Made by a program: the position numbers and the translations under genes
From: Candidatus Hydrogenedens sp.
GTDB lineage: Bacteria > Hydrogenedentota > Hydrogenedentia > Hydrogenedentales > CAITNO01
DNA length: 35,547 bases
Direction: 5' to 3'
NCBI GenBank assembly: GCA_012522755.1
Contig: JAAYJV010000157.1
Span: forward strand, 1-35,547
The notes under the pieces: model-generated
Databases searched by the model: none
What the model was told of the DNA's origin: nothing
The model's input: the letters and a program-made list of their open reading frames with translations, nothing else
Shown here: positions 6,690-34,897 of the stretch, piece by piece
How the letters are laid out: every line of letters starts with the position of its first letter
Numbering within the stretch: the first letter of the stretch is position 1

Positions 6690-7262
6690 ATAACTGTGGA
6701 AAACATGTTGATAACTTTTTATGAAAATTCAAGTCAACTTCTTTCTTTTCAAAATTCAATGAGAGAATTTATGCTGAAAGCCTTGAATCACAGGGCTTAA
6801 ATGAAGATTATCTTGAAGTTTACCAAGATCTAAGATATTTGAATCAAAGAACTTGATTACACAACTGCAATCGGGGATTTTATGGATTATGATAGTAAAT
6901 ACCATGTTCCACGGATTGTGTATAAAGTATCTGCAAGGCTCTGTTCGTGCTTATTTTAAATGAATTTCCGCGGTGGATAACTTTTTAAAATCATCGTGGA
7001 ACATTTATGATGGGAGTCTTGTGAATAACAAGCGTTTTTTTGTGCATAAAAAAAAACTTATCCACAAAAATCGGCTTTTCCTTTTTGAAAAATATTCTTT
7101 TATTTTCACGCTTTGGGATAAAGGTGGAAGGAATACACAAGTTATCAAGAAGTTGTTATTTTATTTCAGCCTTTATTTTCAGGCATGAAAAGAGGTTATC
7201 CACAAGTTCACAGGCCCTACTGGGACTACTACTTGCTTTATATATAAAGAAATCAGTATAAA
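6690..7262. other. candidate replication origin (DnaA-box cluster upstream of dnaN)
   Basis: This gene-free, AT-rich stretch contains two perfect DnaA boxes TTATCCACA on the + strand (7058-7066 and 7196-7204). On the other strand are boxes reading TGTGNAWAA: 6695-6703, 6917-6925, 7020-7028 and 7041-7049. Near-matches are at 6706-6714 and 6972-6980. AGATCT at 6826-6831 resembles the ATP-DnaA hexamer. A very AT-rich segment at 7236-7262 could unwind. Such clusters mark oriC in many bacteria, often beside dnaN. dnaA itself is not in the window, so a DnaA-controlled dnaN promoter is the alternative. Confidence 0.68.
7233..7262 (+). promoter_or_regulatory. promoter of dnaN
   Basis: TTGCTT (7233-7238) and TATAAA (7257-7262) are separated by 18 bases. 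Transcription would begin near 7269, about 38 bases before the dnaN ATG. A perfect DnaA box ends 28 bases upstream of the -35 element, so DnaA could regulate this promoter. Confidence 0.5.
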
Positions 7263-7306
7263 AGATGCATAACTAATTCACATGGTCATGAATCGGGAAT
7301 AGTCTT

Positions 7307-8419
7307 ATGAAATTCACCATATCCAAAAACGATCTTCTCCAGGCACTGAACAAAGTCAAAGGTATTGCCCCGGCGAAAGCCGCCATACCGGTATTAACCA
7401 ATGTCCTTCTGGAAGCGGAGGGCAGTTCCTTGAAACTGACCTCCACAGATTTGAAAATCAATATTGAGTATACGATCGATTGTACTGTTCAGGAATCGGG
7501 TGCCACGACAGTACACTGTCAGCGTATTGTCATGTTACTGAATGAACTTCCTGATACTGATGTGAATCTTTCCCTCCTGGACAATGGTATCCTGGAGTTG
7601 CAGTGCGGTTTGATCACTACAAAGTTGCTGACCGTCTCCGCTGATGAATTCCCCACTATCAGTGACATGTCTTCCATTGAGCCCATCGTGTTCAAACAGG
7701 CGGTATTGAAGAAGCTTTTTCAAAAAACATCCTATGCCATCTGTACAGACCAGTCTCGGTATAACCTTACCGGCTTATTGCTGGAGACCAAGGCTGATGG
7801 AATGCGCGTAGTGGCCACGGACGGGCGCCGCCTGACACTGGCTATCAGTGACGAGGCTGTTTCCTCTGCAACGGAAATGAAGGCCATTATCCCCGCAAAA
7901 ACCATTCATGAGCTTCAGACGCATTTAAGCGATGACGAAGAAAAATCTGTTGAAGTCTATTTTTCGGAGAATCGCGCAGCCTTCGTATTTGACGGGCTTC
8001 GTATTTCCTGTGCGCTCATTGAGGGTAATTTCCCGAATTATGAATTGGTCATTCCCAAGAAGATGAGCAAGGAATTCATTCTTGAACTGGAAACTTTCCG
8101 TCAGTGCATCCGCCGTGCTTCAGCCATGACCAATGACAAATTTCGCAATGTGAAGTTTGTTTTCAACGATGACAATATGCAGCTCATCGTGAAAACACCG
8201 GATGTGGGTGAATATGAGGAAAGCCTTCCTGTGGGTTACCAGGGCGAAAAGATGGAAATCAGCTTCAACCCTTATTTCATTCTGGATGTGCTTCGCTATA
8301 TTGAAGGCGATCAGGTCTGTCTTCAATTCAAAGATGGCAGCAGCCCCGGCATGATCAAACCCTATACGGAAGCCCCTGTTGACAGCTATGTGAATGTGAT
8401 CATGCCTATTCGGAGCTGA
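7307..8419 (+). CDS. dnaN: DNA polymerase III subunit beta (sliding clamp)
   Basis: This 370-residue protein is full length for the bacterial beta clamp, a ring-shaped homodimer that tethers DNA polymerase III to DNA and recruits other repair and replication proteins. Clamp features include the start MKFTISKNDLLQALNKVKG, IPVLTNVLLEA, the central ATDGRRL, the domain 2-3 stretch ISCALIEGNFPNYELVIP, and the C-terminal motif VIMPIR that forms part of the peptide-binding pocket. It lies just downstream of the DnaA-box cluster. The usual neighbours dnaA and recF are absent; a convergent aminotransferase begins 2 bases after its stop. Identity is secure. Confidence 0.97.
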   Translation: MKFTISKNDLLQALNKVKGIAPAKAAIPVLTNVLLEAEGSSLKLTSTDLKINIEYTIDCTVQESGATTVHCQRIVMLLNELPDTDVNLSLLDNGILELQCGLITTKLLTVSADEFPTISDMSSIEPIVFKQAVLKKLFQKTSYAICTDQSRYNLTGLLLETKADGMRVVATDGRRLTLAISDEAVSSATEMKAIIPAKTIHELQTHLSDDEEKSVEVYFSENRAAFVFDGLRISCALIEGNFPNYELVIPKKMSKEFILELETFRQCIRRASAMTNDKFRNVKFVFNDDNMQLIVKTPDVGEYEESLPVGYQGEKMEISFNPYFILDVLRYIEGDQVCLQFKDGSSPGMIKPYTEAPVDSYVNVIMPIRS

Positions 8420-25696: not shown

Positions 25697-25938
25697 AATA
25701 AGATCTCCCTTTTCGACACATCATCGCTGCGGAATGGTATAATAAATCCGGGCAGACGATCGGGGCTCAGACTTGACGTTTTCAGTGTACCATAATTCAA
25801 AGGGGCCATGCCTTTTTCTGTTTCCTGATCTTTCAGTGCCCGAGGGTTGAAGAAGCTTTCTTGAGTGGTGTGCCATCAAGGTGGTACACCCGCAGATTGA
25901 AGGCGTTTCATTCGGCTGTATCGTATAAGGAAAAAATC
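25697..25938. other. divergent region between sulfatase and M23 peptidase genes
   Basis: TATAAT is present at 25738-25743 on the plus strand without a good -35 element at the right distance. TTGACG occurs near 25773, but no -10 element fits it. A TTG-initiated extension of the M23 frame from 25861 is open but has no ribosome binding site. Promoter positions are therefore uncertain. Confidence 0.4.
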
Positions 25939-26538
25939 ATGTGCTTAAGACCTGTCATCCGGGGCGGTGGATGTCTTCTTGTCCTGATCATTCTGGCGGC
26001 TGGTGCGTTTCTCCTTTTCAGTGGAGAGGGTGACGATGTCATTTTTCCTGATCCGGCAAAATCGCCCTACAAACTTCCCTGGGAAGCCGGTCAGTCCCGA
26101 TGGTGTATTCAATCCACGGGAGGGCTCGTAAGCCACCGCGGCGGCGGCCGCTATGCCTATGATTTTTACATGCCTGAAGGGACAGAGGTACGTGCAGCCC
26201 GAGCCGGCAAAGTGGTAAAGGTTGTGCAGGAACACAGTGAACATGGTTATAAAAAGCCCAATAATCTGGTCATTGTCGAGCACAGTGATGGCACTCAGGC
26301 TTATTACGGACATATTCAACAGGGAAGCGCCAAAGTGAAAATGGATGAAAGAGTGAAGCAGGGCCAGGTCATCGCCCTGAGCGGTCATGTGGGTCACAGT
26401 ATGGTACCCCATCTCCATTTTCATGTCATGGACGGCAAAACGCGCACAACCCTGCCCGTCAGTTTTTCGGATCCGGGCAAGCATGATGGGATCCCGAGGA
26501 TTTTCCGGCGTTATACCTCCGGGAACAGGGGAGAATAA
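25939..26538 (+). CDS. membrane-anchored M23 family metallopeptidase (LytM-like)
   Basis: The start is the ATG at 25939, 7 bases after AAGGA, giving 199 residues. Residues 10-28 form one membrane helix, so the catalytic domain faces the periplasm. The zinc site is complete for M23: His66 and Asp75 in SHRGGGRYAYDF, and the HxH motif at 160-162 within VPHLHFHVMD. The core also has GTEVRAARAGKVVKV, HGYKKPNNLVIVEHSDGT and VKQGQVIALSGHVGHS. Such enzymes cut peptide cross-links in peptidoglycan during growth, division or pilus passage. It converges with rsmG, with two parS-like sites in the gap. Confidence 0.9.
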   Translation: MCLRPVIRGGGCLLVLIILAAGAFLLFSGEGDDVIFPDPAKSPYKLPWEAGQSRWCIQSTGGLVSHRGGGRYAYDFYMPEGTEVRAARAGKVVKVVQEHSEHGYKKPNNLVIVEHSDGTQAYYGHIQQGSAKVKMDERVKQGQVIALSGHVGHSMVPHLHFHVMDGKTRTTLPVSFSDPGKHDGIPRIFRRYTSGNRGE

Positions 26539-26545
26539 AACCCAA

Positions 26546-26561
26546 TGTTCCACGTGGAACA
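26546..26561. other. parS-type centromere site 1
   Basis: The 16-base palindrome TGTTCCACGTGGAACA lies within an 18-base perfect palindrome (26545-26562). It matches chromosomal parS, the ParB-binding site, in the variant with C and G at the fifth and twelfth positions known from Pseudomonas. It sits 8 bases after the stop of the M23 gene. Confidence 0.85.
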
Positions 26562-26602
26562 TGGGACAGCATAGCCGCAAGCAAATGATACTTTTTATTT
26601 AA

Positions 26603-26642
26603 CCCCGAAAAGCGCAAAAGGACGCGAAAGGACTGAGAGGAA
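26603..26642. repeat. imperfect 10-bp periodic repeat (CGCGAAAGGA type)
   Basis: Units CCCCGAAAAG, CGCAAAAGGA, CGCGAAAGGA and CTGAGAGGAA follow each other with a period of 10. I recall cgcaaagg/cgcgaaagg strings as another repeat type scattered between genes in environmental bacteria. The element lies between the two parS-like sites. Confidence 0.45.
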
Positions 26643-26751
26643 AAAGCTTATGTCTTCTCCGGAGTCTCTTTTGTATCCCAAGACATACCTGCGCCGTCAT
26701 TCCGGTTGTTTCTTGACCCTGCGCTCGCATCAAAGCATGCAAACACCTCAA

Positions 26752-26767
26752 TGTTCCACGTGGAACA
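26752..26767. other. parS-type centromere site 2
   Basis: This is identical to the site at 26546-26561, again inside an 18-base perfect palindrome (26751-26768). The two sites are 206 bases apart. This copy ends 5 bases from the end of rsmG. Confidence 0.85.
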
Positions 26768-26772
26768 TTTCA

Positions 26773-27405
26773 TTACACACGGGTGATCAATTGAAGATTT
26801 CCCCGACGTAAGCCCGCCTGATGCCACACATCCGTTATGACCTCTGTCTGGTATTTTCCGGCCGCAGTACCGGGAACACCTTCCAGCTGACAAAGGAAGG
26901 TGCTCTTCACTGGCAGACGCTGTAAAATTCGGTTGTACACCTGTCGGGGACGTTCCACGGCACGGGCCGTTATAGCACGGGCCTCAATCTTTGAAGGATG
27001 CTCCGGAAATTCACCCGCCAGTACTTCAATACCCTCCAGCCCGAGCGTCGCGATGACACGATGCAGAAATCCGGCCTTGCGAACACTTCGTTCAACACAC
27101 AGTACTGGAAGATCCGGATAAAAACATTTCAGCGGAATGGCTGGAAAGCCGGCACCACTGCCTATATCGAGAAGGGCCGTCCCCTTCTTGCCCAGTCCTA
27201 TGTAGGGAGCAAGACTCAGGGAATCCACAAGATGCCGCTCCGTAAGAAAAGCCAGATCCCCTTGTGAAACAAGACTGACAGTCTGATTCCATTCCCGGAT
27301 CAGAGCCAGATGTTCTTCAGTTTTACGGACACCATCCTCATCAAATACGGTATTTTCATCGCTTCCAAGAATTTCCAAGGCTTGTTCCAGCTGTTTCAAG
27401 GTCAT
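26773..27405 (-). CDS. rsmG: 16S rRNA (guanine-N7)-methyltransferase G
   Basis: This 210-residue protein (GidB) methylates N7 of guanine 527 (E. coli numbering) in 16S rRNA using S-adenosylmethionine; loss gives low-level streptomycin resistance in many bacteria. Key segments are LIREWNQTVSLVS, ERHLVDSLSLAPYI, the SAM loop LLDIGSGAGFPAIPLK (78-93) and CVERSVRKAGFLHRV. ITARAVERPRQVYN also fits the family. Its ATG overlaps the stop of the upstream 173-residue gene (ATGA), so translation is coupled. Usually rsmG lies with mnmG and parA-parB near the origin; here it is last in a glycosyltransferase operon, but parS sites follow at once. Confidence 0.94.
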   Translation of the reverse strand: MTLKQLEQALEILGSDENTVFDEDGVRKTEEHLALIREWNQTVSLVSQGDLAFLTERHLVDSLSLAPYIGLGKKGTALLDIGSGAGFPAIPLKCFYPDLPVLCVERSVRKAGFLHRVIATLGLEGIEVLAGEFPEHPSKIEARAITARAVERPRQVYNRILQRLPVKSTFLCQLEGVPGTAAGKYQTEVITDVWHQAGLRRGNLQLITRV

Positions 27406-33095: not shown

Positions 33096-34897
33096 ACACA
33101 GCCAAATATTTTGTCAAAATATAGCCATGTAAATTATATTATAACTCCTGATAATTAGTGTCATATCGTATATAATGTAGCCATGTATATTGATATCGTG
33201 CCCAATAGAAAATCACCGCCGGCCATCCTGTTGCGTAAATCAACGCGACAAGGAGGAAAGGTGGTAAAGAAAACCATCGCCAATCTCAGCGAATGCTCCC
33301 CCGAAGTGATAGCGGGCTTACGGCTGTTGCTGGCGGGTAAAACCCTCGTGCCTGCCGATGAATTGCTCACTATTGAACGCTCTTTGCCTCATGGCCACGT
33401 GCAGGCCGTGTTGGGCTTCATGGGCCGGTTGGGTATGGATACGCTGCTGTCCTCTCGTCCCTGCCGGCAACGCGATCTGGTGATGGCGATGATTGCACAG
33501 CAAATTCTTGATCCCTCCTCAAAACTGGCCGTAACACATCTGTGGCATACCACTACGCTTGCCCGGGAACTGTCGGTTGAGAATGCCCATGTGAATGAAC
33601 TTTATGATGCCCTGGACTGGCTGCTGGAACGCCAGAGTCGCATTGAGAACAAACTTGCCAAACGACATCTTTCCCAAGGCGCTGTTGTTCTCTTCGATGT
33701 TTCAAGTTCTTCCTGTCATGGTCGCAGCTGTCCGCTTGCGGTACGCGGTTATCATCGCGACGGCGAAAAATTACCCGGTATTGTTTACGGGTTGCTTGCC
33801 GACAGTGAAGGCCGGCCCATATCCGTAGATGTATATCCGGGCAATACCGCCGACCCTGTCACCGTACCGGATCAGGTGGAAAAATTACGCGGACGCTTTG
33901 GCCTTGAACGGGTGATATTGGTGGGGGACCGGGGTATGTTGACCCGGACGCAGATAGACATGCTGCGTCATTATCCGCAGTTGGGCTGGATATCCGCGTT
34001 GCGTTTTGGCGCCATACGCAAACTGGCGGCACAGGAGGCATTCCAGCCTTCTCTTTTTGACGAGCAGAATCTGGCGGAGGTCACCAGTGACGATTATCCG
34101 GGGGAGCGTCTGATGGTCTGTTATAATCCACTTTTGGCGCAGGCCAGATGCCGCACACGCAATGAACTGCTTGAGGCGACAGAAAAGGATTTGCAGAAGA
34201 TTACGGTTCAGTGTTCCCGACGGGTCCGCAAACCGCTTGATGAAAAAGAGATAGCCATCAAAGTCGGCAAGGTTCTGGACAAGCACAAGGTGGGCAAACA
34301 CTTTGAAATCCGAATATGGGACAACACGCTGTCTTATCAGCGCAAGCAGGACACTATTGAGACGGAAAGCCGTCTGGACGGTTTTTACATCATACGCACC
34401 AGTGAGAGCGAAGAAGCGCTGAATGCGTCTGACGCAGTACGTACCTGCAAGAGTCTGGGGCAGGTGGAGCAGGCCTTCCGGTGCATCAAAAAGACAGACC
34501 TTCATGTGCGTCCCATCCGTCATCGCAATGAACAGCGGGTACGTGCGCATATTTTTGTCTGTATGCTTGCATATTATGTGGTGTGGCATCTACGCAAGAC
34601 GCTGGCACCCATCCTTTTTGAAGATGAGCAGCTTGATGAGGACAGATGGACGCGCGACCCTGTGACCAAAGCGCAGCCATCCTCCTCGACCATGAAGAAA
34701 AAAAGAACGCTGCAATCAGCGCAGGGGTGGCCGACACACAGTTTGAAAACCTTATGGGCGGTCCTTGGCACTCGCTGTAAAAACGAAGTGAAAATGGGCG
34801 AGGGCAAAACGGCAGCCCACTTTATGCAATTAACCGAAGCAAGCGAATTCCAATGTCACATATTTGATTTGCTGGGACTTAAGCCATAAAGCTGTGT
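33096..34897 (+). mobile_element. insertion sequence of the IS1634 family (ends approximate)
   Basis: The element is defined by an intact transposase. Short inverted 7-mers ACACAGC (33096-33102) and GCTGTGT (34891-34897) flank the gene at suitable distances and may mark the ends. TACCC occurs at 33090-33094 and 34897-34901, but its position does not fit these ends cleanly, so a target duplication is not established. A promoter-like TTGTCA (33111-33116) with TATATT (33135-33140) lies inside the left end. Confidence 0.5.
33183..34889 (+). CDS. IS1634-family DDE transposase
   Basis: This 568-residue protein looks complete. The N-terminal segment (IVPNRKSPPAILLRKSTRQG) and KKTIANLSECSPE are typical of the IS1634/IS4-like group. 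The RNase H-like catalytic core has Asp172 in VVLFDVSSS, Asp249 in ILVGDRGMLT and Glu429 in LGQVEQAFRCIK. YHRDGEKLPGIVYGLLADSE and DVYPGNTADP lie between, as in related enzymes. The C-terminus ends normally (FDLLGLKP). It cuts and pastes its own element. An in-frame GTG at 33261 follows a strong AAGGAGG and could yield a form lacking the first 26 residues. No frameshift or stop is seen, so the element may be active. Confidence 0.92.
   Translation: MYIDIVPNRKSPPAILLRKSTRQGGKVVKKTIANLSECSPEVIAGLRLLLAGKTLVPADELLTIERSLPHGHVQAVLGFMGRLGMDTLLSSRPCRQRDLVMAMIAQQILDPSSKLAVTHLWHTTTLARELSVENAHVNELYDALDWLLERQSRIENKLAKRHLSQGAVVLFDVSSSSCHGRSCPLAVRGYHRDGEKLPGIVYGLLADSEGRPISVDVYPGNTADPVTVPDQVEKLRGRFGLERVILVGDRGMLTRTQIDMLRHYPQLGWISALRFGAIRKLAAQEAFQPSLFDEQNLAEVTSDDYPGERLMVCYNPLLAQARCRTRNELLEATEKDLQKITVQCSRRVRKPLDEKEIAIKVGKVLDKHKVGKHFEIRIWDNTLSYQRKQDTIETESRLDGFYIIRTSESEEALNASDAVRTCKSLGQVEQAFRCIKKTDLHVRPIRHRNEQRVRAHIFVCMLAYYVVWHLRKTLAPILFEDEQLDEDRWTRDPVTKAQPSSSTMKKKRTLQSAQGWPTHSLKTLWAVLGTRCKNEVKMGEGKTAAHFMQLTEASEFQCHIFDLLGLKP

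Follow-up and report, generated by a model that had tools for sequence, protein, structure and literature searches.

The two identical palindromes that lie between an M23-family peptidase gene and rsmG in the stretch of Candidatus Hydrogenedens sp. DNA analysed here (35,547 nucleotides, hereafter the window) are very probably parS sites that make up the chromosomal centromere in a standard ParABS system. ParB would load at them and spread from there, and the origin region would be the first to be segregated. This reading follows from the combination of two sites only, a ParB of the parS-reading type and a canonical parA-parB operon in the same genome, whereas ParB binding, spreading and the segregation function themselves are what we infer from it. 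In our view the locus is a chromosomal centromere of the ordinary kind, and what is unusual is where its sites are placed, a feature shared across the lineage.

A single pair of parS sites near a candidate origin

Exact copies of the 16-bp palindrome TGTTCCACGTGGAACA occupy positions 26546-26561 (site A) and 26752-26767 (site B), 206 bp apart from start to start, and the coordinates, spacing and flanking genes given in the original prediction all proved exact. From the stop codon of the M23-family peptidase gene (25861-26538, forward strand; Pfam Peptidase_M23, E 4.6e-20) there are 7 bases to the start of site A, and site B is 5 bases beyond that of rsmG (26773-27405, reverse strand), which encodes the 16S rRNA G527 N7-methyltransferase (Pfam GidB, E 2.4e-29; TIGR00138, E 4e-26 and 91.8 bits, under the 99.5-bit cut-off). 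The two genes are convergent, the gap of 234 bp between them holds both palindromes, and both sites extend to one identical 18-bp palindrome. An IS1634-family transposase gene is located at 33183-34889, about 6 kb from rsmG.

A scan of the window with up to three mismatches returned no further match to TGTTCCACGTGGAACA (mean in shuffles 0.13), and a search of the draft genome (4,006,924 bases, 199 contigs) allowing two mismatches likewise finds these two sites alone. When the loose pattern TGTTNCACGTGNAACA is used, the places in the whole genome that rank after them carry two mismatches, and genome-wide matches to this loose parS pattern are no commoner than those to a reversed control pattern. 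The original prediction had named a palindrome common across the genome and the lack of an encoded ParB as the findings that would speak against it; the palindrome is confined to two copies at one place, and a ParB is encoded.

The expectation that the sites cluster near the origin was likewise borne out, as both of the genome's sites lie 19.5 kb from a candidate oriC, the predicted DnaA-box region. This cluster (6695-7282; five perfect TTATNCACA boxes and near matches) precedes the origin marker dnaN (7307-8419, forward strand; DNA polymerase III beta, with three DNA_pol3_beta domains). GC skew within the window mostly reflects the strand on which the genes lie and does not locate the origin. 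The dnaA gene is located on another contig than dnaN (G000:C149:80619-81956, G000 being the window's own genome), and given the DnaA boxes in front of dnaN, dnaA and dnaN seem to be separated in this genome. In 15 parS-bearing relatives, dnaN and parS share one contig, at distances from 1.6 kb (G006) to 98 kb (G026). Judged from sequence, the parS sites thus lie in a single place, close to the dnaN/DnaA-box candidate for the origin, the origin itself being a prediction.

The ParA and ParB proteins of the genome

No parA or parB was found among the scanned open reading frames of the window, in agreement with the original prediction that neither gene stands beside rsmG. However, any reading of that prediction as a genome without par genes has to be dropped, as the search for them that it proposed yielded a canonical parA-parB operon between hemA and serS on contig C107, where the gene order is hemCD and hemA (divergent), parA, parB, serS and sir2. 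ParA (PF13614, E 5e-62) is encoded directly before parB, overlapping the parB start, and the ParB (L009:8626-9543; TIGR00180, E 4e-55) is the single one in the genome over the family cut-off, with ParB_N, HTH_ParB and ParB_C domains (PF02195, PF17762 and PF23552). Its best matches among solved structures are chromosomal ParB proteins, aligned over the N-terminal and DNA-binding domains. At the four ParB/Noc specificity positions the protein carries R173, T179, Q184 and G201 according to an HMMER alignment. R173 and G201 are parS-type residues that are absolutely conserved in ParBs (PMC7383237), and hence parS, rather than the Noc site, is the expected target of the protein. Q184, where Caulobacter has alanine, was counted against a parS reading, at a position reported to be variable among ParBs. 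No parS site was found near parAB.

In its single ParA and its single ParB with N-terminal, HTH and C-terminal domains, as well as in the same parS sequence, present in few copies and close to the origin, the system resembles the chromosomal ParABS systems of Spo0J/Soj, Caulobacter and Myxococcus. It departs from the common chromosomal layout in that parAB stands beside serS/hemA on C107 and not at parS and rsmG, an adjacency that is common but not defining. In ParABS systems, ParA moves the ParB-parS complex. parS nucleates ParB, which, once it has bound CTP, closes as a clamp and then slides onto the adjacent DNA (PMC7053999). All the observations made here agree with this mechanism. In the window genome, ParB made from the C107 operon would load at the two sites as such a CTP-dependent clamp and spread over nearby origin-proximal DNA, and ParA would then move the complex, so that the origin region would segregate first.

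Separation of parAB from rsmG

The nearest clearly named relatives of the window's RsmG in the genome collection are Candidatus Hydrogenedentes MAGs (L105 and L107), which puts the window in the phylum Hydrogenedentota, a placement by closest relatives rather than by a tree. The relatives searched comprised 60 draft genomes, drawn from the window's own genome, its genus, family and order, and the phylum-wide sample at a 97% completeness setting comprised 11 genomes, again all drafts. A parB gene is present in 54 of the 60 and, in the places compared, never on the contig that bears rsmG, while the order parA-parB-serS recurs in all five parAB loci examined. No par genes were seen beside parS in relatives, either within about 1.5 kb at the loci read or in the longer stretches examined. 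In G028, the contig with parS is 395 kb long and lacks parAB; parS is located 222 kb into it, which places parAB at least 173 kb from parS, as against about 4 kb between the parS cluster and parA of M. xanthus (PMC3899335). In G007, parB and dnaN are 74 kb apart on one contig, so parAB may remain in the wider origin region.

Outside the phylum, rsmG has parA on its downstream side, no more than 6 kb away, in 38 of 76 loci, a biased sample fetched by one RsmG motif, in line with the earlier statement that parA-parB follows rsmG in many genomes. In three loci of Paenibacillus (Bacillota; L144, L148 and L179), parS is found 8-27 nt past the rsmG stop, approximately the position of site B in the window; unlike in the window, another ParB-like gene and parA-parB follow rsmG there, and no in-frame copy of parS within rsmG was seen in these loci. 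The simplest history would be one in which parAB moved away from rsmG in an ancestor of the Hydrogenedentota genomes studied, with parS left behind. In this history, parAB would have reached its present parA-parB-serS setting, and the cis sites would have been retained close to dnaN, at the 3' end of rsmG. The original prediction that genes were dispersed and cis sites stayed largely holds, in so far as parAB left and parS kept its place at rsmG; the separation is old and general in the Hydrogenedentota, however, and not a recent event in the window genome, and the sites themselves have turned over.

A parS site within the rsmG reading frame

The 14-bp core GTTCCACGTGGAAC is present in 44 of the 60 genomes, mostly as exactly two copies close together, about 80-160 bp apart, and in nearly every readable locus it is located at the rsmG 3' end. 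Most relatives carry an inner site within rsmG, in frame and as a rule 82-145 nt ahead of the last base of the stop codon, where it encodes (M/V)FHVE(H/Q), mostly MFHVE(H/Q), together with an outer site usually 1-30 nt past the stop (the two being usually 82-115 bp apart in this layout). The layout is not universal, as family f7 and some others have no core site at rsmG and the single site of G039, an f7 member, lies elsewhere; this lone parS (L022, 851-866) stands downstream of a gene judged by eye to be mnmG-like, about 80-95 nt from its stop codon, and the other f7 genomes have no core site.

Among 38 distinct rsmG 3' ends, the codons of the FHVE motif are nearly fixed, with CAC in 34/34 histidines, GTG in 33/33 valines, TTC in 32/35 phenylalanines and GAA in 34/36 glutamates, against background fractions in the same genes of 0.60, 0.47, 0.48 and 0.54, respectively. 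The ratio of observed to expected codon entropy is 0.0-0.42 at the FHVE columns, compared with a median of 0.93 at 114 other columns; the counts are not independent because the sequences are related, yet the motif stands out clearly from the other columns in these genes. A parS site within a coding sequence has precedent in P. aeruginosa PAO1, where coding sequences most likely contain nine of the ten sites predicted (PMC4368675). Unlike in P. aeruginosa, the in-gene site of the Hydrogenedentota occupies the same in-frame codons of one gene across most of the phylum and is paired with a second site just past the stop, the coded one having been lost in the window genome. Among the papers searched, none linked parS, ParB and rsmG.

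Turnover of the sites in the window genome

The RsmG of the window reads KYQTEV at the C-terminus where most relatives align with MFHVE(H/Q), and the coded parS is therefore gone. Site B sits at the usual outer position of relatives and aligns with the outer site of G001, a genome of the same genus in which the gap is about 47 bp with one outer site and the inner site lies within rsmG. The wider gap of the window contains extra sequence that cannot be aligned to G001 and that includes site A. This site may have come about by duplication or by insertion, and beyond a shared CAATGTTCCACGTGGAACAT the flanks of sites A and B do not match. With the coded copy lost and a second intergenic copy present, the parS sites themselves have turned over. 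Genome G020, from another family, is likely a second case of the same turnover, with the motif replaced by KFATERV and two core sites outside it, at positions 0 and +58 relative to the stop codon of rsmG. Both sites are absent at L101 of G019 (motif GFDIKV), where just one site with two mismatches is found.

We infer that the second intergenic site compensates for the lost in-gene site, and in the window genome the copy beside the M23 stop would thus keep the number at two. Here we speculate further, giving the idea roughly even odds, that the Hydrogenedentota centromere is a two-part element, one parS in the rsmG frame and one past its stop, which stayed under DNA-level selection even after parAB had left, and in which a lost coded copy is replaced by a non-coding one (in the window genome and apparently in G020) while the pair is kept. 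If true, such keeping of the pair would suggest that two sites are needed. The recurrent pair, with its coded copy replaced in some lineages, lets one ask in nature if a second parS is indispensable. In addition, an uncultured phylum gains a predicted centromere and a pointer to its likely origin region, and the two sides of one segregation system, sites in cis and genes in trans, are seen to evolve apart.

Alternative explanations

The location of parAB elsewhere in the genome and the position of both sites between unrelated convergent genes would also fit non-functional relics of a former rsmG-parS-parAB locus, with the surviving ParB using other sites. We consider this extremely unlikely, as both sites are perfect 16-mers within the same longer palindrome, the draft genome offers no other site at up to two mismatches and places matching a looser consensus occur at control frequency, the cores and the number of the pair are conserved across families, and the in-gene copy shows almost no codon variation. 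The setting between convergent genes, with a stop codon no more than 8 bases from each site, could also suggest a bidirectional terminator, for which a perfect inverted repeat might form the stem, or sites of another factor such as a transcription regulator recognising a CACGTG core. This, too, is most improbable: in most relatives one copy lies inside the rsmG coding sequence, well ahead of the stop codon, which is unsuited to a terminator, a promoter for a regulator to act on is not expected in a convergent gap, and the palindrome agrees with parS, for which the M. xanthus consensus is TGTTCCACGTGGAACG (PMC3899335), in a genome that encodes a parS-type ParB.

With regard to the in-gene copy only, and thus not to the identity of the window sites, FHVE might have been kept for the function of the RsmG protein with the palindrome as a by-product, and each FHVE residue is indeed found in 33-36 of the 38 RsmG sequences. 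This is very unlikely in our view, as the codons of the motif are nearly invariant where those of other conserved residues vary, the RsmG proteins of the window (KYQTEV), L096 (KFATERV) and L101 (GFDIKV) do without the motif while the rest of the protein is intact, and the second copy is usually non-coding. A parS centromere remains the preferred reading of the palindromes.

Other site numbers among the relatives

The highest number of core parS sites of any genome checked was six, on five contigs of G024 (C137, C213, C351, C380 and C418), a draft genome in which no ParB was found. In L034 (G054) and L033 (G056), the coded site occurs twice in tandem within rsmG, as MFHVEHSAPMFHVEH in L034, where the copies are 27 bp apart, which suggests a duplication of parS inside the gene.
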